From: Halanaeroarchaeum sp. HSR-CO
Lineage (GTDB): Archaea > Halobacteriota > Halobacteria > Halobacteriales > Halobacteriaceae
Assembly: GCF_024972755.1 (NCBI RefSeq)
Contig: NZ_CP087724.1
Coordinates: 1,984,001 to 2,048,000, forward strand
Reading direction: 5' to 3'
Length of the DNA stretch: 64,000 nt
Below are positions 30,021 to 38,756 of this stretch, piece by piece; within the stretch, counting starts at the first letter, position 1, and each line of letters starts with the position of its first letter. The notes below the pieces were generated by a model, which was given only the letters and a program-made list of their open reading frames with translations, was not told the DNA's origin and searched no databases. The position numbers were made by a program, and so were the translations under genes.

Positions 30021-30389
30021 TCAGGATTCACGGGTGTAAAGCAGTGCGAGGACAACGATGAGGACGACCTGGACGACTTTGTCCCCGATACCGAGCGGGG
30101 AGAAATCCGGTGCGTTCACGAGGTACCAGGCCACGATCTGCCCCCCGGTGAACGGGATACCCAGGAGGTAGATCAGTCGCCGTCGGTAGTCGTATAGGAC
30201 CGCGACGATGGCGGCGAAAAAGACCACACCGGCGAAGAGGAATGACCAGCCCATCGGGTCCGAGACGAAACTCACCCCGAGGACGAGATGTATCACGCCC
30301 GTCACGAGGGCGAGGCCGATGGCGAGCCAGTGGAGCCCAGTGAGGGATTCGGTCCGGATGGAGGTCCCGGAGTCGGTCATCGTTGACAT
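30021..30389 (-). CDS. Four-helix membrane protein of unknown function
   Basis: The 122 residues hold four hydrophobic segments: LHWLAIGLALVTGVIHLVLGV, SFLFAGVVFFAAIVAVLYDY, RLIYLLGIPFTGGQIVAWYLV and VVQVVLIVVLALLY. The layout with short loops recalls a widespread haloarchaeal membrane family with no known role. Starts at 30389 or three codons later are both possible. A weak AT-rich stretch (CATATGTCAACATAG) lies upstream. Confidence 0.62.
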   Translation of the reverse strand: MSTMTDSGTSIRTESLTGLHWLAIGLALVTGVIHLVLGVSFVSDPMGWSFLFAGVVFFAAIVAVLYDYRRRLIYLLGIPFTGGQIVAWYLVNAPDFSPLGIGDKVVQVVLIVVLALLYTRES

Positions 30390-30426
30390 ATGTCAACATA
30401 GCCCAGTACCGGCTTGAATCTTTTGT

Positions 30427-31527
30427 CTATCTGACGTGTTGCCGAAACGCCTCCTGGAACCCGTCGGTCGCGAACCGGTCGCGCTGGAGCCTCGGGCGGT
30501 CGTCGCGGTCGATCGCCCCGCTGACGAGGTCGATTGCCTCGGGCACAGAATCGAACGATCGGTCCGCTCGACCGCGGAGAATCTCACGCTGACCACCGGA
30601 CGCCGGTGCGAACGGGACCATGCCGGCCGCGACGTATTCGGCCACGGCCATGCCGAAGTGCTCGTCCGCTTTGACGTTGAGCCCGTATCGATACCCACAC
30701 AGCAACTCGATGACGCGACGTCGAGGTACGTCCGTCTCGAGGTGGACGTAAGGTCGCTCCTCCGCCGCAGCAGCGATCCGATCGGCGTACCGGCGATAGG
30801 CCCGCGGTGCCGAACCGACGATGTGCAGGTGGACGTCGTGGCCCCGGTCTCGCACGCCGTCCACGATGGCTATCGCCTCCTCGAGCCGTTTGTCCGGGGC
30901 GATGCGACCGACGACCACGATTCCCGTCTCACGGTCTTCCCAGGTGGTGTCACACGATATCGGGTCGACCGGGGGGTGCAGGACCGTCGGTCGAGTCCCG
31001 TAGATGGCCTCGAATACGTCCGCGGTCCATCCGGAGTTCGCGAGGTAGGTGGCAGTGTCGGTCCCGCCACTCACGTCGGGGGCCGCCACCCGACTCCAGA
31101 GCGCGTTCAACCGGCCCGCGTCGGCGTCCGCCGCACGGCGGATCTTGAACTGCGGATAGTGCACGTACTGGACGGACGGAATGGGTACCGCGACCTCGTT
31201 CGCCGTGCTCACCGCCAGGTCGAACTCGTCTGCGACAGGGAGGAAGAACCGACGGAGGAGGACGCTCCGAAAGGCTAGCTGTGGACCGACCCACGGCGCC
31301 AGCCAGGAGAGGGCTCGGGCGGTTCGGTTTGCGCCCGTCGGCATTCTGACGTCGACGTCGGGCAACGGGGTGTCAAAGCGGTCGGACAGGGCTTCGAGGG
31401 CCGTCTCGGAGACGGTAAAGAGCGTGACGTCGTGGTCGTCGGCCAGCGCGTCACACACCGCCAAACAGACGGTATCCGCACCGCCCTGAAAGTCGAGGGT
31501 ATTGTGGAGGACCGCGACGTCGGCCAT
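30427..31527 (-). CDS. GT-B family 4 glycosyltransferase
   Basis: This 366-residue protein shows the GT4 retaining glycosyltransferase fold: an N-terminal FQGGADTVCLAVCDAL glycine loop, YLANSGWTADVFEAIYG, VVVGRIAPDKRLEEAIAIVDGV and the C-terminal ADEHFGMAVAEYVAAGMVP, which has the EX7E-type acidic pair. It would transfer a sugar from a nucleotide donor; its VHYPQFK segment recalls ALG11-like mannosyltransferases, but specificity is not certain. It is divergent from the Gfo/Idh-AKR fusion and shares a 73-base promoter region, so it is likely part of the same pathway. Confidence 0.82.
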   Translation of the reverse strand: MADVAVLHNTLDFQGGADTVCLAVCDALADDHDVTLFTVSETALEALSDRFDTPLPDVDVRMPTGANRTARALSWLAPWVGPQLAFRSVLLRRFFLPVADEFDLAVSTANEVAVPIPSVQYVHYPQFKIRRAADADAGRLNALWSRVAAPDVSGGTDTATYLANSGWTADVFEAIYGTRPTVLHPPVDPISCDTTWEDRETGIVVVGRIAPDKRLEEAIAIVDGVRDRGHDVHLHIVGSAPRAYRRYADRIAAAAEERPYVHLETDVPRRRVIELLCGYRYGLNVKADEHFGMAVAEYVAAGMVPFAPASGGQREILRGRADRSFDSVPEAIDLVSGAIDRDDRPRLQRDRFATDGFQEAFRQHVR

Positions 31528-31550
31528 GGACTGCCTTCGCTGGGGTGGGT

Positions 31551-31557
31551 TATAATT
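31551..31557 (-). promoter_or_regulatory. TATA-like box for the glycosyltransferase gene
   Basis: AATTATA on the minus strand is about 27 bases before the glycosyltransferase ATG at 31527, the first half of a divergent promoter pair. Confidence 0.45.
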
Positions 31558-31570
31558 TCGTGGCCTTTAC

Positions 31571-31578
31571 ATTTTTAT
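31571..31578 (+). promoter_or_regulatory. TATA-like box for the Gfo/Idh-AKR operon
   Basis: ATTTTTAT lies about 26 bases before the GTG at 31601, supporting that GTG as a leaderless start. It is 14 bases from the oppositely oriented box at 31551-31557, so both genes are likely controlled together. Confidence 0.5.
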
Positions 31579-31600
31579 CCTGGCTCTCGAATGCAGTGGC

Positions 31601-33586
31601 GTGGAATGCGTCTTCGTCGGTGCGGGTTCGGTCGCAGAGCAGTACGCAGACGGTCTCGAAACCGCCCCCCTGGAGCTGACGGCGGTGTGCGACCGGCGGT
31701 TCGATCGAGCGCAAGCACTCGCCGATAGCCACGGGGCGACCGCCTACGAGGACCTGACGGAGCTATTGGCGGCGGAAGCCGCGCCCCTGGTCGTCAACCT
31801 GACCAGCCACACCGCCCACGCGGGAGTGACCGAGACGGCACTGACCGCGGGTCGACACGTCTTCAGCGAGAAGCCACTGGCGATGAGTGCCGACCGCGCG
31901 GCCGAACTGCTGGCAATAGCCGAACGAAACGACCTGGCCCTCGCAGCGGCCCCGATCAATCATCGCGGAGCGGCACAGACACACGCCGGGACCCTCCTCG
32001 GCGACCGTCGCTTCGGCGAGATTCGCCTCGCGTACGCCCACGCCCACGTCGGGCGGGTCACGGAGTGGCACGAGAATCCCGACTCGTTCCTCGCGGTCGG
32101 CCCGCTCTACGATGGCGCGGTCTATCCGTTGAACCTGCTCGTCGCGTGGTTCGGGCCGGTCGAACGCGTCAGGACGGCCGACGCCATCGACGTCTGGCCG
32201 GACGGCGAGGACGGCACTCCCGGTCGCGCACCCCACGTCGAGGCAACCCTCGACTTCGAAAGCGGCCCCACCGTCCGACTTTCGACGAGTCTCTACGTTC
32301 CCCATCGCAGTCGCGAGTTCTACAGCCTCGAGATCCACGGCGACGAAGGCTCGCTCTACCTCCCGGATACCGGTGCGATGTCGGCCGGCCCGAAAGCGGT
32401 ATCGGTCGGTGCAAACGGTCGCGAATACGTCGCCGCGCCGCCCCCGTCCCCGCCGCGACCGCAATCGTACGTCGACGGCCCCACCCGGCTGGCCGAATCC
32501 ATCCGCGCCGGCGAGCGTCCGACGAACGACGCGCGGCGGGCCGTGCACGTCGTCGCCGTCTGTAACGCCATCGAGGAGGCCGCCGCCGATGGCGGCGACG
32601 TTCGCGTCCCCAGCCACGGGTTCTCCGCCAGCTTGCCCGACGGGCCACCGGTCCGACCGCCATCGGGCGGCCAGGGGTCCGAATCGCCCCGCGAGCCGGG
32701 ACGGGGATCCGCGATACGGCTGCCGCCGATCGGTTTCGGCGCTTCACGATACAGAGACGGCACGTACGTCGACCGCATCGACTCCATCGCGACGGCCATC
32801 GACGCTGGCTACCGACTGTTCGACTCCGCCGAACTCTACGGCAACGAATCGCGGATCGGAGCCCTCCTCGCGAGGGCGGGGACGCCGGACAGGGACCACT
32901 ACGCCATCATCGGGAAGGTCTGGAATACGAACCACGAACACGTCGCCGAGGCCTGCGAGGGGAGCCTGGCCGAACTCGGTCTCGAGTCGTTCGACGCCTA
33001 CCTCCTCCACTGGCCCGAAGCCTGGACATACCAGGGACCGCTCGAGGATCTGGCAGCGAAACCGGTCGACGAGCAGGAGGCGTTGACCTTCCCCACCGAC
33101 GAGACCGGACACCCTGCGACGGTCGATGTCCCACTGACGGAGACCTGGGGGCGCATGGAACGACTCCACGACCGGGGCCTCACCCGCACGCTGGGGTTGA
33201 GCAACGTGACCGTCGAACAGCTAGAGACGGTACTGGAGTCGGCCAGGATACCCCCGGCGATCGTCCAGGTCGAATCCCACCCGTATCGACCACGGCGCGC
33301 GCTGGTCGAGACCTGTCAGGACCTGGGCATCCGGGTCGTCGCCCACTCGCCACTCTCCGCCCCCGGACTCCTCGAAGAGCCAGTCCTGCTCGACGTCGCC
33401 GAGACACACGACAGCACCCCTGCGCAGGTCGTCCTCGCCTGGAATCGTGCCCGTGGCGTGGTCCCGATACCCGCGAGCAACGACCGCGATCACATCGTCG
33501 AGAACCTCGCAGCAGCCCGGATTCGTCTGGACAGCGCCGAACGAGCACGGATCGACGCCCTCGAGGACCCGACGTTCGAGCCATGA
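31601..33586 (+). CDS. Gfo/Idh/MocA oxidoreductase fused to aldo/keto reductase
   Basis: The 661-residue protein joins two reductase domains. Residues 1 to about 345 are a Gfo/Idh/MocA dehydrogenase with Rossmann loop VGAGSVAEQYADGL and the EKP motif at 90-92. After a Pro-Gly-rich linker (about 346-371), residues 372-661 form an aldo/keto reductase with an intact tetrad: Asp408, Tyr413, Lys439 and His470 (DSAELYG, IIGKVW, LLHWP). The C-terminal PIPASNDRDHIVEN is the usual NADPH phosphate site. Together they could oxidise and reduce one sugar- or polyol-like substrate in series. The fusion is unusual. GTG start chosen from the TATA spacing. Confidence 0.85.
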   Translation: MECVFVGAGSVAEQYADGLETAPLELTAVCDRRFDRAQALADSHGATAYEDLTELLAAEAAPLVVNLTSHTAHAGVTETALTAGRHVFSEKPLAMSADRAAELLAIAERNDLALAAAPINHRGAAQTHAGTLLGDRRFGEIRLAYAHAHVGRVTEWHENPDSFLAVGPLYDGAVYPLNLLVAWFGPVERVRTADAIDVWPDGEDGTPGRAPHVEATLDFESGPTVRLSTSLYVPHRSREFYSLEIHGDEGSLYLPDTGAMSAGPKAVSVGANGREYVAAPPPSPPRPQSYVDGPTRLAESIRAGERPTNDARRAVHVVAVCNAIEEAAADGGDVRVPSHGFSASLPDGPPVRPPSGGQGSESPREPGRGSAIRLPPIGFGASRYRDGTYVDRIDSIATAIDAGYRLFDSAELYGNESRIGALLARAGTPDRDHYAIIGKVWNTNHEHVAEACEGSLAELGLESFDAYLLHWPEAWTYQGPLEDLAAKPVDEQEALTFPTDETGHPATVDVPLTETWGRMERLHDRGLTRTLGLSNVTVEQLETVLESARIPPAIVQVESHPYRPRRALVETCQDLGIRVVAHSPLSAPGLLEEPVLLDVAETHDSTPAQVVLAWNRARGVVPIPASNDRDHIVENLAAARIRLDSAERARIDALEDPTFEP

Positions 33587-34362
33587 CCGGACAGACCGTC
33601 GACCGATCCGGACTCGAACGGCCGTTCGGCCGCGTGGTCGTGGGGTTCACCCTCTCAGTACTGGCGATCGCCCTCGGAGTGGGTACTCTCGCAGGAACGT
33701 CGACCGCCGTCCGATGGGCGATTCCGACAGCCGCGGTCGCGGCCATTGCACTGGCGTATTGCTACCGCCTCCTCGAGCACAACCACCCTGCAGGGGCATC
33801 GCGACCGGCGTTCGATTCGCTCGGCGTCGCGAACCACGTGACCCTCGCCAGAGGCGGCCTGTTCGCGGCCATCGCTGGTTTCGCGTTTCTCGAACCGACC
33901 CGGTGGATCGGCTGGCTTCCGGCCCTGCTCTACGGGGCGGGGTCCGCGCTTGACGCCGTCGACGGGTTCCTGGCGCGGATGAACGGACGGACGACCGTCC
34001 TCGGTGCGAAACTGGACATGGCGTTCGACTCGGTCGGGTTCGTGGTCGGACCGGTCGTCGCCGTCCTCTGGGGGCGGTTGCCGGTCTGGTACCTCTCGCT
34101 CTCGGTGGCCCGATATCTGTTCCTCGCGGGCAAAACGTGGCGACAACGGCGAGGCCGGCCAGTCTTCGAACTGCCCGAGAGCAGGGTCCGGCGGCCGCTC
34201 GCGGGTTTTCAGATGGCATTCATCACCGTCGCACTCGCTCCGCTCGTGTCGGCCGAGACGATTCACACGCTCGCCGTGGTCGCGTTACTCCCCTCCCTGC
34301 TGGTGTTCCTCAGAGATTACCTGGTCGTCAGCGGTCGGCGTGGGGGTGGGGAACAATATTAA
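33583..34362 (+). CDS. CDP-alcohol phosphatidyltransferase family protein
   Basis: This 259-residue membrane protein carries the CDP-alcohol phosphotransferase motif D124-x2-DG-x2-AR-x8-G141-x3-D145-x3-D149, all residues present. Hydrophobic segments surround it (about 17-35, 43-62, 90-105, 150-165, 215-255). Such enzymes move a phospho-alcohol from a CDP-linked donor to a second alcohol, for example making archaetidyl-inositol or -serine. Its ATG overlaps the stop of the fusion enzyme by four bases. The acceptor cannot be deduced, but the neighbours suggest an unusual sugar or polyol. Confidence 0.85.
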   Translation: MTGQTVDRSGLERPFGRVVVGFTLSVLAIALGVGTLAGTSTAVRWAIPTAAVAAIALAYCYRLLEHNHPAGASRPAFDSLGVANHVTLARGGLFAAIAGFAFLEPTRWIGWLPALLYGAGSALDAVDGFLARMNGRTTVLGAKLDMAFDSVGFVVGPVVAVLWGRLPVWYLSLSVARYLFLAGKTWRQRRGRPVFELPESRVRRPLAGFQMAFITVALAPLVSAETIHTLAVVALLPSLLVFLRDYLVVSGRRGGGEQY

Positions 34363-34474
34363 CCGTGCCGGGTATTGTTATCGATGTGAACCGTATAGCT
34401 CGCTATGAGGTACCGGCCCTCGCGACCGACGGAACCACGCCGTCTCACCACGCCGATGCACGGGTGACCCGGCA

Positions 34475-35539
34475 ATGGCCCAGAGCAACGAGTCGCCCTC
34501 GAGCACCACCGCAGGAGTGGTGTTCGGGCTGATGGAGCAGCGCTCGCTCTACTTCACCGCCCCAGGGGAGACCGCCATCCAGGAGTCCCGAGTGACCGCT
34601 GCAGAGGACGAGGTGCTGGTCGAGACGACCGTCTCGGCGGTCAGCGCTGGCACCGAACTCCTCATCTATCGGGACGAGGCGCCGGGGAGTCTCGAAGCGG
34701 ACGCGACCATCGACGCACTCGACGGCGACCTCTCGTATCCGGTCAAATACGGCTACGCCACGGTCGGGACGGTCACCGAGACCGGCCGATCCGTCGACGA
34801 CGACTGGCGAGGGCGATCGGTCTTCGCGTTCAACCCGCACGAATCGCGATTCGCCGCCACCCCCGACAGCCTCATCCCGGTGCCCGAAGGACTGCCGGTG
34901 GAGTCGATGGCGCTATTCCCCTCGGTCGAGACCGCGACGTCGCTCGTCATCGACGGACGGCCACGGATCGGCGAACGCGTAGTGGTCTTCGGGGCGGGTA
35001 TCGTCGGCCTCTGTACCGTCGACCTGCTCTCGTCGTTCCCCCTCGGCCGACTGACCGTCGTGGAACCACTCGAGCAGCGACGCGAGCACGCACGAGAACT
35101 CGGGGCCGACCGGGCCATCGCGCCGGCGGAAGTGCGGACCGAACTCGAGTTCGACGGCGACCCGGCGGGAGCCGACCTCGTCTACGAACTCTCCGGAAAT
35201 CCGGCGGCACTCGACGACGCTTTGGACGTGACGGGGTACGACAGCCGCGTGATCGTCGGCTCGTGGTACGGAACCAAACGGGCCGATATCGATCTGGGCG
35301 CCGATTTCCACCGGGACCGTGTGTCCATCGAATCGAGTCAGGTGAGCACGCTCGCGCCTGATTCGCGGGGTCGGTTCACGCGCGACCGGCGAGCGGCAGT
35401 CGCCCTCGACCGGCTCCGGACGATGGATACCGACTCGTTGATAACCCATCGGATCCCGTTCGCCGAGGCCGACGCCGCGTACCACCTGCTCGATAGACGA
35501 CCGGAGGCCGCCATCCAGGTACTCCTGACCTACGAATGA
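34475..35539 (+). CDS. MDR-family dehydrogenase, BchC-like, without zinc ligands
   Basis: The 354-residue medium-chain dehydrogenase has the substrate-domain pattern SAVSAGTELLIYRDE (SAGTE at 57-61) and KYGYATVGTVTETG, as in BchC-like enzymes, in place of the GHE and Cys motifs of zinc alcohol dehydrogenases. The structural zinc Cys cluster is also missing. A Rossmann domain follows: VVVFGAGIVGLCTVDLL near residue 170. It may reduce or oxidise a ring-attached hydroxyl. An alternative start 19 codons later (34532) would remove a Ser/Thr-rich leader. A 112-base gap before it contains AT-rich DNA (about 34353-34385) and could hold its own promoter. Confidence 0.78.
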   Translation: MAQSNESPSSTTAGVVFGLMEQRSLYFTAPGETAIQESRVTAAEDEVLVETTVSAVSAGTELLIYRDEAPGSLEADATIDALDGDLSYPVKYGYATVGTVTETGRSVDDDWRGRSVFAFNPHESRFAATPDSLIPVPEGLPVESMALFPSVETATSLVIDGRPRIGERVVVFGAGIVGLCTVDLLSSFPLGRLTVVEPLEQRREHARELGADRAIAPAEVRTELEFDGDPAGADLVYELSGNPAALDDALDVTGYDSRVIVGSWYGTKRADIDLGADFHRDRVSIESSQVSTLAPDSRGRFTRDRRAAVALDRLRTMDTDSLITHRIPFAEADAAYHLLDRRPEAAIQVLLTYE

Positions 35540-35967
35540 CCCGAACTACCGACACTGCAACGGTCGAGACGAATCGCCCCGAAACCACCTATACGCTCGG
35601 CGTCAGCCGTGATCTCGTCGCCCAACACTTCCTCACGGTCCCCGATCCCGGGCCGGAGGGAGAGATCCACAGCCACCACTTCGAACTGGAGGTTCGATTC
35701 GCAGGACCCGCCCTCGACGAATACGGCTATCTCGTGGACATCGACGCCGTAAACGACATCCTCGACGAGATCGAGAGCCGGTATCGCGACGCCCTCCTCA
35801 ACGACCTCCCCGAATTCGAGGGCGAGAACCCCAGCGTGGAGCGATTCGCCCGCCACGTCGGCGACCGTATCGCTGCCGAACTGCCCGACGCCACCCCGAA
35901 TAGCCTCGTGGTCCGCATCTGGGAGGACGAATCCGCCTGGGCCAGTCACCGGCGTCGACTCGAGTGA
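35536..35967 (+). CDS. 6-pyruvoyl-tetrahydropterin synthase/QueD-family protein with Glu for Cys
   Basis: The 143-residue protein matches the PTPS/QueD fold: His31 and the HSHH stretch (45-48) supply zinc ligands, and LNDLPEFEGENPSVERFARHV matches the LND...NPTaEnLA segment. In QueD and PTPS-I the catalytic Cys lies four residues before the HGH histidine; here that position is Glu41, as in PTPS-III enzymes that make 6-hydroxymethyl-dihydropterin. Overlaps of four bases with both neighbours (35536-35539 and 35964-35967) make it part of a tightly coupled set. It may make a pterin or act on a related aldehyde. Confidence 0.8.
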   Translation: MTRTTDTATVETNRPETTYTLGVSRDLVAQHFLTVPDPGPEGEIHSHHFELEVRFAGPALDEYGYLVDIDAVNDILDEIESRYRDALLNDLPEFEGENPSVERFARHVGDRIAAELPDATPNSLVVRIWEDESAWASHRRRLE

Positions 35968-36824
35968 TGGACCACGCAGCGATCCGGTACCTGGAGGCGA
36001 AACGGTCGATCGACGACCGGGCGATGGCCGACGAAGTGCTGGCGACGGTGCGGCGGTCGCTGCCGCCAGACCCGACCATCCTGGAAGCGGGCTGTGGAAC
36101 CGGGACGATGGTTCCCCGGCTACTCGAGTTGGGAATCACCGACGGCACGTATCGCGGTGTGGACCGGGACGAGACAGTCATCGCCTTCGCCAGGGACGAT
36201 CGCCCGAAAGAACTCCGGAATGGTGGTCGGCAGGTCGACGTCTCACCGAGGGGGTTCCGGGTCGATGACATGGCCGTCTCGTTCGTGGTGGGTGACGCGC
36301 TCGACGCGTTCGCGGACGTGAGCGACGCAGACCTCTTCGTCGCGGCCTCGTTCGCAGACCTGGTTCCCATACCGGCCCTGCTCGATACCATCACGACGGC
36401 GCTGCGCCCCGGAGGGCTGGCGTATCTCCCGCTCACCTTCGACGGCGAGACGGTCTTCCAGCCGGACCACCCGGCCGACGAACAGGTGATCGACGCGTAC
36501 CACCAGGCCATCGACGCCCGACCCGGTCGTGACGCCCGGGCTGGCCGCCATCTACTCCATGAGTTCCAGGACAGCCCGGGCGAGTTGCTCGCCGTCGCGT
36601 CCTCCGACTGGATCGTCCGCCCGCGAGACGGAGTCTATCCGACCGACGAGGCGTACTTCCTCACTCGAATTCTCGACTTCGTCGAGTCGTCGCTCTCGAA
36701 TGCGTCGCCGCCGGTTCCTGACCTCGCGGACTGGCTCGAGGTCCGGCGAAGCCAGTTGGCCGCGAGCGAACTGACCTACGTCGCCCACAATTACGACCTC
36801 CTGTACCGGACGGCAGGGGACTGA
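35964..36824 (+). CDS. Class I SAM-dependent methyltransferase
   Basis: The 286-residue protein has SAM motif I as ILEAGCGTGTMVPRLLELG (about residues 34-53), a motif II acidic residue in YRGVDRDE, and RPGGLAYLPLTFDGETVF further on. The C-terminal third (LLAVASSDWIVRPRDG; YVAHNYDLL) is specific and may bind the substrate. It ends the coupled cluster that starts at 31601. The acceptor is unknown, but pterin, sugar or lipid head-group are candidates. Confidence 0.78.
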   Translation: MMDHAAIRYLEAKRSIDDRAMADEVLATVRRSLPPDPTILEAGCGTGTMVPRLLELGITDGTYRGVDRDETVIAFARDDRPKELRNGGRQVDVSPRGFRVDDMAVSFVVGDALDAFADVSDADLFVAASFADLVPIPALLDTITTALRPGGLAYLPLTFDGETVFQPDHPADEQVIDAYHQAIDARPGRDARAGRHLLHEFQDSPGELLAVASSDWIVRPRDGVYPTDEAYFLTRILDFVESSLSNASPPVPDLADWLEVRRSQLAASELTYVAHNYDLLYRTAGD

Positions 36825-36911: not shown

Positions 36912-37457
36912 ATGTACGAGGTCGAAGTGAAGGTTCGTGCGGACCACGACGCCGTCCGGAGTGCACTGGAACGACTCGAGGCCACTCGCGTGGGAACCGT
37001 CGAGCAGGCGGACGTCTACTACGACGTGCCCCATCGGAACTTCGCCGAGACCGACGAAGCGCTCCGAATCAGGCGGGAAGTCGATGCAGCGGGCGAATCC
37101 GAGACGGTCCTCACCTACAAAGGACCGCTCGTCGAGGACGATTCGAAGACCCGCGAGGAGATCGAGACGCCCATCGTCGAACTACCGACGTTCGAAGCCA
37201 TCCTCGATTCGCTGGGGTTCGAACCGGCGGCGACGGTCGAGAAGACGCGGGAACGGTGGGAAGTCGACGACTACGTCGTCTCTCTTGACGACGTGGCGGG
37301 GCTCGGAGGGTTCGTGGAGGTCGAGGCCGAAGCGGAACGGGAGGCAGTCTCGTCGGTTCGAGACGGCGCCTACGAGGTCCTCCGCCGCCTGGATCTCGAC
37401 CCCGAATCGCAGATTCGGACGTCCTATCTCGGACTGTTGCTCGAGGACGATGGATAG
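36912..37457 (+). CDS. CYTH-domain protein (CyaB/thiamine-triphosphatase type)
   Basis: This 181-residue tunnel-fold protein begins with the ExExK motif (YEVEVKVRAD) that binds metal and triphosphate. Arg and Lys-rich strands follow (EALRIRREVD, TYKGPLVEDDSKTREEIET), then RERWEVDDYVVSLDDVAGLGGFVEVEAE. Archaeal members are annotated as class IV adenylate cyclase, but most act as inorganic triphosphatases; the product here cannot be decided. It lies 87 bases after the methyltransferase. Confidence 0.85.
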   Translation: MYEVEVKVRADHDAVRSALERLEATRVGTVEQADVYYDVPHRNFAETDEALRIRREVDAAGESETVLTYKGPLVEDDSKTREEIETPIVELPTFEAILDSLGFEPAATVEKTRERWEVDDYVVSLDDVAGLGGFVEVEAEAEREAVSSVRDGAYEVLRRLDLDPESQIRTSYLGLLLEDDG

Positions 37458-37550: not shown

Positions 37551-38756
37551 ATGACCGAGCGAAACATTCGAGTGCAGGCCCTCGACCGCGGCGCGGTCGA
37601 AGACCAGGAGGTCGAGATCGTCGAGCGGAAGGGCATCGGTCACCCCGACTCCATCTGCGACGGCATCGCCGAGGCCGTCTCTCGGGCACTCGCCCAGGAA
37701 TACATGGACCGGTTCGACAAGGTCCTCCACTACAACACCGACGAGACCCAACTGGTCGCCGGCGACGCCGCCCCCGCCTTCGGTGGTGGCGAGGTGATCG
37801 AACCGATCTACATCCTCCTCGTGGGTCGCGCGACGAAATACTACGACGGGACCGCGATTCCCGTCGACGCCATCGCGCTGGAGGCCGCCCGTTCGTACCT
37901 CCGCGAGACGATTCCCAACCTCGACCTCGAGTCGGATGTCATCGTCGACGTCAAACTCGGGGAGGGCTCCGGGGACCTCCAGGAGGTCTTCAGCGAAACG
38001 GGCGCGGCCGTCCCGATGGCCAACGACACGAGTTTCGGAGTCGGGCACGCACCGCTCACCGAGACCGAGCGCATCGTCCTGGAGACCGAACGACGTCTCG
38101 ACGCGGAGTTCGGCGAGAGTCACCCCGCCCTCGGCGAGGACGTCAAGGTGATGGGCAAGCGCGAAGGCAACACGATCGATCTGACGGTCGCCGCCGCGAT
38201 GGTCGACGCCTACGTTCCGAACATGGACGCCTACAAGGCCGAGGTCGAGGCGGTCCGCGACTTCGTGAACGACCTCGCCTACGAATTTACGGACCGGGAG
38301 GTACGGGTGCACGTCAACACGGCCGACGACTACGACGAGGGCTCCATCTACCTCACCACCACCGGGACGAGCGCCGAACAGGGTGACGACGGCTCGGTGG
38401 GCCGGGGCAATCGCGCGAACGGGCTCATCACCCCAAACCGCTCGATGTCGATGGAGGCGACGAGCGGGAAGAACCCGGTCAACCACATCGGCAAGATCTA
38501 CAACCTCCTCTCGAACCAGATCGCTGGCCGCGTCGTCGACAACGTCGCCGGCATCCGGGACCTCCGTGTCCGCCTGCTCAGCCAGATCGGCTCGCCGATC
38601 GACGATCCCCACGTCGCCGACGTCCACGTGACGACCGAGGACGGCGTCGGCCTGGGCGACATCGAGCAGGATGTCCGGGACATCGTAGACGACGAACTCG
38701 CCCACGTGGCCGACGTCACCGAACGGACGATCGACGGCGAACTGACGACGTTCTAG
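37551..38756 (+). CDS. mat: S-adenosylmethionine synthetase, archaeal type
   Basis: The 401-residue enzyme forms SAM from methionine and ATP. It is the archaeal MAT family, distinct from bacterial Met[23 protein letters not shown] near residue 25, [64 protein letters not shown] (motifs read in parts). All conserved nucleotide-binding residues appear intact. It could supply SAM to the adjacent methyltransferase, though as housekeeping function. Confidence 0.95.

Follow-up and report, generated by a model that had tools for sequence, protein, structure and literature searches.

We analyzed a gene cluster at positions 30021-36824 of a 64,000-nucleotide stretch (the window; C1:1984001-2048000) of the 2.79 Mb genome of Halanaeroarchaeum sp. 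HSR-CO (G000). An earlier note, made from the DNA letters alone, had described six open reading frames here as a single uncharacterised biosynthetic locus, and all six are present. Their family names are supported by domain matches, except that the dehydrogenase resembles BchC only weakly (TIGR01202, 50.4 bits versus a cut-off of 291.25 bits). The inventory had left out a DUF7475 gene, which is a recurrent member of the locus. Comparative genomics suggests, with reasonable confidence, that this locus represents the haloarchaeal version of an uncharacterised but widespread pathway, which branches from early riboflavin synthesis and modifies a GTP-derived diaminopyrimidine. The features of the locus are as follows:

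30021-30389, minus strand: DUF7475 small membrane-protein-like gene (PF24287, 1.7e-11)
30427-31527, minus strand: GT4 glycosyltransferase, subtype f10 (PF00534, 2.7e-10)
31528-31600, no strand: candidate divergent promoter region of 73 bases (from the sequence and similar spacing in six relatives)
31601-33586, plus strand: Gfo/Idh/MocA-aldo/keto reductase (AKR) fusion, accessory (PF01408 and PF00248)
33583-34362, plus strand: CDP-alcohol phosphatidyltransferase (PF01066, 6.4e-14)
34363-34531, plus strand: gap, the GTP cyclohydrolase III slot in relatives (gene maps of L032, L033, L036, L037 and L040)
34532-35539 (annotated reading frame 34475-35539), plus strand: zinc-free medium-chain dehydrogenase, core (PF00107)
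35536-35967, plus strand: PTPS-fold (PTPS-IV-like) protein, core (PF01242, 3.2e-25, 88.9 bits versus a cut-off of 22.4)
35967-36824 (alternative start 35964), plus strand: class I S-adenosylmethionine-dependent methyltransferase, core (domain match, with homologue support for the start)

The DUF7475 gene lies on the same strand as the GT4 gene, 37 bases downstream of it. The 73-base divergent gap between GT4 and the Gfo/Idh-AKR fusion is present as described before; it contains A/T-rich TATA-like stretches, and a divergent arrangement of ~65-75 bases recurs in six relatives. ATGA overlaps had been claimed at three junctions but are found at two (33583 and 35536). Homologues support an ATG at 35967, so that the PTPS and methyltransferase genes overlap by a single base (TGATG). 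For the dehydrogenase, the start is probably at 34532 rather than 34475, because its homologues begin at M-x-x-x-SLYF, and the gap between the CDP-alcohol transferase and dehydrogenase genes is therefore ~169 bases long. In Halococcus and some Halorubrum relatives this gap is occupied by a gene for GTP cyclohydrolase III.

Conservation was assessed in 77 loci, 58 of them from a scan with the dehydrogenase of one genome per prokaryote species and 19 from relatives. Genes were counted within 6 kb of the dehydrogenase. The scanned loci come from haloarchaea, Chloroflexota, Desulfobacterota/Myxococcota, and alpha- and gammaproteobacteria, and plasmid records add carriers among actinobacteria, Thiodictyon, Methylosinus, Rhizobium and Natronorubrum. 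The recurrent core consists of the zinc-free BchC-like dehydrogenase, the PTPS-fold protein (69/77 loci), a GT4 glycosyltransferase (67/77) and the methyltransferase (51/77), often accompanied by the CDP-alcohol transferase (38/77). Locus-type relatives of DUF7475 are found in 27/77 loci. The six genes had been treated as equal members of the locus, but Gfo/Idh and AKR are present in only 10/77 loci and GT4 of subtype f10 in 12/77, where it is an alternative to the commoner subtype f1 (55 loci). Both the fusion and subtype f10 are peripheral to the locus. Gene order is identical to that of the window in G041, and Halocatena marina, YIM A00010 and three Halorubrum retain its core order, with some genes added or displaced. 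In the dehydrogenase tree, haloarchaeal sequences form one group (86/97), nested in a 100/100 group with Chloroflexota, Thermodesulfobacteriota and Myxococcota, while dehydrogenases accompanying the proteobacterial FGPAQ-type PTPS are separate. Judging from the tree, this history fits one transfer between domains, with later spread and loss, partly on plasmids. Other genes accompany the core in particular lineages. In the Stappiaceae loci L067, L077, L085 and L088, genes for cytochrome b561, acyl carrier protein, an acyl-CoA dehydrogenase-like protein and DUF1839 lie downstream of the core. Many alphaproteobacteria have a large membrane GT2 glycosyltransferase divergent to it (e.g. L067:8043-9875, minus strand), annotated as MdoH-like in Methylosinus.

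Of 195 complete Halobacteria genomes followed for co-occurrence, 113 have the dehydrogenase, 115 PTPS and 114 the methyltransferase. All three core genes are found together in 113 genomes, PTPS with the methyltransferase in 1, PTPS alone in 1 and none in 80. For the dehydrogenase/PTPS pair the hypergeometric probability is 3e-53, relatedness of the genomes being ignored. About a dozen genomes keep both genes even though they are >20 kb apart or on different contigs, and the methyltransferase is distant from the locus throughout one genus (g40). G001, which belongs to the same genus as the window organism, lacks all three, which shows that the core genes are gained and lost together. A chance neighbourhood is thus ruled out, and synteny and near-perfect co-occurrence strongly support the notion of a single biosynthetic locus. 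The refutation proposed in the earlier note, by genes that are not kept together in relatives or that each have an orthologue in an unrelated housekeeping role, fails.

The PTPS-fold protein has no cysteine and has lost the catalytic triad, but keeps the zinc histidines H31, H45 and H47 as well as E130. Where QueD has its catalytic Cys in the alignment, proteins of the FGPAQ group have Ala, and those of haloarchaea, Chloroflexota and the delta type have Glu. None of the relatives retains the Asp-His pair of QueD, the window protein having R-D instead. Two zinc His residues are invariant among the relatives; the FGPAQ group lacks the third. Glu130, which anchors the ring, is the same in all of them. 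These residues suggest that the protein probably still binds a 2-amino-4-oxo-pyrimidine ring, with different chemistry. Loss of the triad despite retention of the anchoring Glu argues that it is not a QueD, tetrahydrobiopterin (BH4) or folate PTPS. The motifs of the known subfamilies agree: the protein has Glu, R-D and no cysteine in place of the CxxxHGH with catalytic Cys and Asp-His of PTPS-I/QueD, lacks the CxxxxxHGH motif of PTPS-II (BH4), and does not fit the ExxHGH of PTPS-III (folate), since Glu in EGEIHSH is at -4 and -2 rather than -3. The FGPAQ signature of PTPS-IV is absent from the window protein and its haloarchaeal and Chloroflexota relatives; it is found in proteobacterial relatives and in SCO6650. 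The PTPS-IV neighbourhood of GTP cyclohydrolase II (PF00925) and RibD_C (PF01872) is seen in bacterial loci and not in the window, haloarchaeal loci having GTP cyclohydrolase III. On Streptomyces plasmids, loci L116 and L123 have the gene for an FGPAQ-type PTPS beside genes for MEKHLA-domain, cupin and MBL-fold proteins, with none of the other core genes close by. The protein may serve another purpose there, and PTPS alone is therefore not a safe marker of the pathway. The window PTPS is also the only one in its genome, which has none of the QueD type, so that the organism may make the archaeosine precursor in another way or not at all; the same-genus G001 has no PTPS.

The dehydrogenase has SxGTE and YGYA at the zinc-ligand positions in place of CGTD and GHE, and its model (predicted local distance difference test score, pLDDT, 87) matches general medium-chain dehydrogenases. 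The methyltransferase model is confident (pLDDT 96) but matched only generic small-molecule methyltransferases in a fold search for its substrate. In the CDP-alcohol transferase, the motif D124 D127 G128 A131 R132 G141 D145 D149 is invariant in 16 archaeal and bacterial relatives; choline phosphotransferases and phosphatidylglycerophosphate synthase are among the best solved relatives of this enzyme. No sequence relative of the window GT4 was found in the PDB at 1e-3. DUF7475 has many paralogues in haloarchaea, one subfamily of which tracks the locus; in several genomes that have PTPS and the dehydrogenase unlinked, it remains beside PTPS. LPG_synthase_TM membrane proteins are encoded in loci of Chloroflexota, Marinobacter, Rhizobium and Microbacterium, and weakly in L122. 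The window locus is followed by a CYTH-domain gene (36912-37457, plus strand) and a gene for an apparent archaeal-type S-adenosylmethionine synthetase (37551-38756, plus strand; read from sequence).

The entry into the pathway is suggested by a recurrent link to GTP cyclohydrolases: at least one of GTP cyclohydrolase II, GTP cyclohydrolase III or RibD_C is present in 46/77 loci. GTP cyclohydrolase III (PF05165) is encoded in 23 loci, directly before the dehydrogenase in Haloferax, Halococcus, Halolamina, some Halorubrum and others. In G032, G033, G035, G044 and G047 the second copy of this enzyme is the locus one, and in G038 and G052 it lies beside PTPS, with the dehydrogenase elsewhere. In a tree of the enzyme, eight locus copies form a clade free of housekeeping copies (100/96), and the remaining ones need further separate recruitments. 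In bacterial loci, the slot is filled by GTP cyclohydrolase II and RibD_C reductase, which are naturally fused in one protein in L066. The best solved relative of the locus RibD_C is 2,5-diamino-6-ribosylamino-pyrimidinone 5'-phosphate reductase. Relatives of the creatininase family (ArfB-like) are found at loci L122, L072, L110 and L101. In L122, from Streptomyces fungicidicus, the creatininase-family gene accompanies a GTP cyclohydrolase II with Met at the position of E. coli Tyr105, a residue that agrees with the alignment of PDB entry 2bz0; all others tested have Tyr. Spoonamore et al. (2006) reportedly found that Met at this position makes Streptomyces SCO6655 release the formylated intermediate. 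A deformylase is therefore expected at L122. SCO6650, the solved FGPAQ-type PTPS, is a near neighbour of SCO6655, going by gene number. Cyclohydrolases with a predicted formylated product tend, in these few loci, to accompany a deformylase, and those of the Tyr type would make the deformylated product directly. Creatininase-family formamidases acting on formamidopyrimidine (FAPy) are established (PMC9478397). The window genome itself encodes a single unlinked cyclohydrolase III (C1:1727568), creatininase (C1:790979) and RibD_C (C1:1948615), as needed for riboflavin, and the locus would tap their product.

Against this background of observed conservation, co-occurrence, domain identities and residue losses, the cluster probably turns GTP into a glycosylated, methylated, perhaps lipid-bound pterin-like molecule. 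The earlier note had proposed a sugar, polyol or pterin-like product; the pterin/pyrimidine option is favoured because relatives' loci carry GTP cyclohydrolases and RibD_C reductase. No enzyme had been thought to have an assignable substrate, but upstream, comparative genomics points to a GTP-derived diaminopyrimidine as the likely entry compound. In the route that we infer, from entry substrate and order of reactions to final structure and lipid link, GTP cyclohydrolase III (II in bacteria) would open GTP, and deformylation would yield 2,5-diamino-6-ribosylamino-4(3H)-pyrimidinone 5'-phosphate, which the RibD_C/ArfC reductase would convert to the ribityl form. The unlinked single-copy genes would perform these steps in the window organism. 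From 2,5-diamino-6-(ribosyl/ribityl)amino-pyrimidinone 5'-phosphate as the branch point, the zinc-free dehydrogenase would act on the side chain, and the PTPS-like protein would hold the 2-amino-4-oxo-pyrimidine, or a derived pterin, by its conserved Glu for a chemistry that does not use the triad. Glycosylation by GT4 and methylation by the methyltransferase are likely, judging from the enzyme families. Attachment to lipid is plausible: the most likely role of the CDP-alcohol transferase would be to link a lipid phosphate to the product or to its glycosyl moiety, and DUF7475 (LPG_synthase_TM proteins in bacteria) would be the membrane partner.

Several points weigh against this proposal. The window locus has no cyclohydrolase or RibD_C gene, and 31/77 loci lack both within 6 kb, although some of these are cut by contig ends and housekeeping copies could do the work. 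With the CDP-alcohol transferase at 38 loci only, attachment to lipid may be dispensable or a mistaken idea. Gathering loci via the dehydrogenase and short conserved peptides biases the sample, and the cyclohydrolase III tree has several long branches. Finally, the Haloferax locus cyclohydrolase III also serves riboflavin synthesis, its knockout being a riboflavin auxotroph (PMC8305020), so that the linkage there could partly reflect riboflavin supply.

Among the alternatives, the most serious, if still unlikely, is that the same GTP-derived entry leads to a soluble glycosylated methylated pterin, like cyanopterin, limipterin or solfapterin, with the CDP-alcohol transferase and membrane proteins being accessory or belonging to neighbouring lipid genes. 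Glycosylated pterins are known from both bacteria and archaea, the CDP-alcohol transferase is absent within 6 kb at 39/77 loci, and tetrahydrobiopterin glucosyltransferase is among the solved relatives of locus GT4 (7e-10), several unrelated GT4 scoring better. However, a CDP-alcohol transferase with an intact motif is a repeated find in archaea, Chloroflexota, gamma- and alphaproteobacteria and actinobacteria, as are LPG_synthase_TM proteins in bacterial loci. About equally unlikely is a more far-reaching version of our own proposal, namely, that archaea and bacteria share a lipid-anchored, glycosylated, methylated pterin or diaminopyrimidine made by a pterin route independent of GTP cyclohydrolase I. 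In that case, RibD_C reduction of the ribosylamine and oxidation of the ribityl chain by the dehydrogenase would formally equal the Amadori step of GTP cyclohydrolase I, and the resulting dihydropterin would then be reshaped by the triad-less PTPS. It is improbable that we are dealing with a sugar or glycolipid locus, in which the dehydrogenase and the PTPS-fold protein have a sugar or polyol as substrate and no part derives from GTP. The Gfo/Idh-AKR fusion, GT4 and CDP-alcohol transferase of the window would suit it, but GTP cyclohydrolase II or III, RibD_C and creatininase relatives are repeatedly found in the locus, the pterin-anchoring Glu is invariant and the fusion is rare. A role in coenzyme F420 synthesis, with which the pathway would have an early intermediate in common and to which PTPS-IV was tied in a published remark quoting unpublished data (PMC5041015), is contradicted by distribution and very improbable: CofD is present in 43/43 near-complete haloarchaeal genomes, whether they carry the locus or, like the same-genus G001, lack it, and missing from 14/16 locus-carrying bacterial genomes (some of them incomplete metagenome-assembled genomes). 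Equally hard to credit is ordinary pterin housekeeping by a QueD (archaeosine/queuosine), BH4 or folate PTPS with unrelated neighbours; relatives are automatically annotated as 6-carboxytetrahydropterin synthase, but their catalytic Cys is replaced by Glu or Ala and the triad His is lost, a separate QueD-like PTPS exists alongside the locus one in other haloarchaea, and co-occurrence with the dehydrogenase and methyltransferase is strict.

The gene set is kept by ~58% of the sampled haloarchaea (113/195) and by members of at least five bacterial phyla. Placing the orphan PTPS-IV-type proteins in a branch of early riboflavin synthesis gives them a pathway context and a candidate entry substrate. 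If correct, it would explain the duplicated GTP cyclohydrolase III and II genes and imply that both archaea and bacteria make a guanine-derived cofactor, pigment or lipid not described before. Haloferax, one of the carriers, is genetically tractable.

PTPS-IV has been recognised as a subfamily of COG0720 by its FGPAQ motif and its GTP cyclohydrolase II/RibD_C neighbours (AGeNNT, PMC5445326), and a solved structure of this type (3d7j, SCO6650) is listed as uncharacterized. Such neighbourhoods are thus already in the literature, whereas full-text searches for the gene mix, halopterins and HVO_1281-1285 found no account of the pathway and no published product or function. The window protein belongs to the same fold family and likewise lacks the catalytic Cys, and the bacterial loci described here share GTP cyclohydrolase II (PF00925), RibD_C (PF01872), dehydrogenase, GT4 and methyltransferase. 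It differs in having PGPEG (WGPEN in Chloroflexota) for FGPAQ, three zinc histidines and Glu at the lost Cys, and haloarchaeal loci use GTP cyclohydrolase III. The archaeal riboflavin/F420 entry (ArfA/GTP cyclohydrolase III, ArfB, ArfC) has the same first enzymes, sometimes duplicated into the locus, and likely the same early intermediate. To these, the locus adds the dehydrogenase, PTPS-like protein, GT4, methyltransferase and CDP-alcohol transferase, and it is absent from 80/195 haloarchaea. Similarity to the bacteriochlorophyllide dehydrogenase BchC (TIGR01202) is weak; the locus enzyme scores far below the cut-off, lacks the classical zinc ligands and has a different context without chlorophyll genes. 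The suspected product class, a GTP-derived ring with GT4-type glycosylation, is that of cyanopterin, limipterin, solfapterin and the tetrahydrobiopterin glucosyltransferase. As far as is known, these glycosylated pterins are made with GTP cyclohydrolase I and a catalytic PTPS, whereas the locus described here combines GTP cyclohydrolase II or III, RibD_C and a triad-less PTPS, with possible attachment of the product to lipid.

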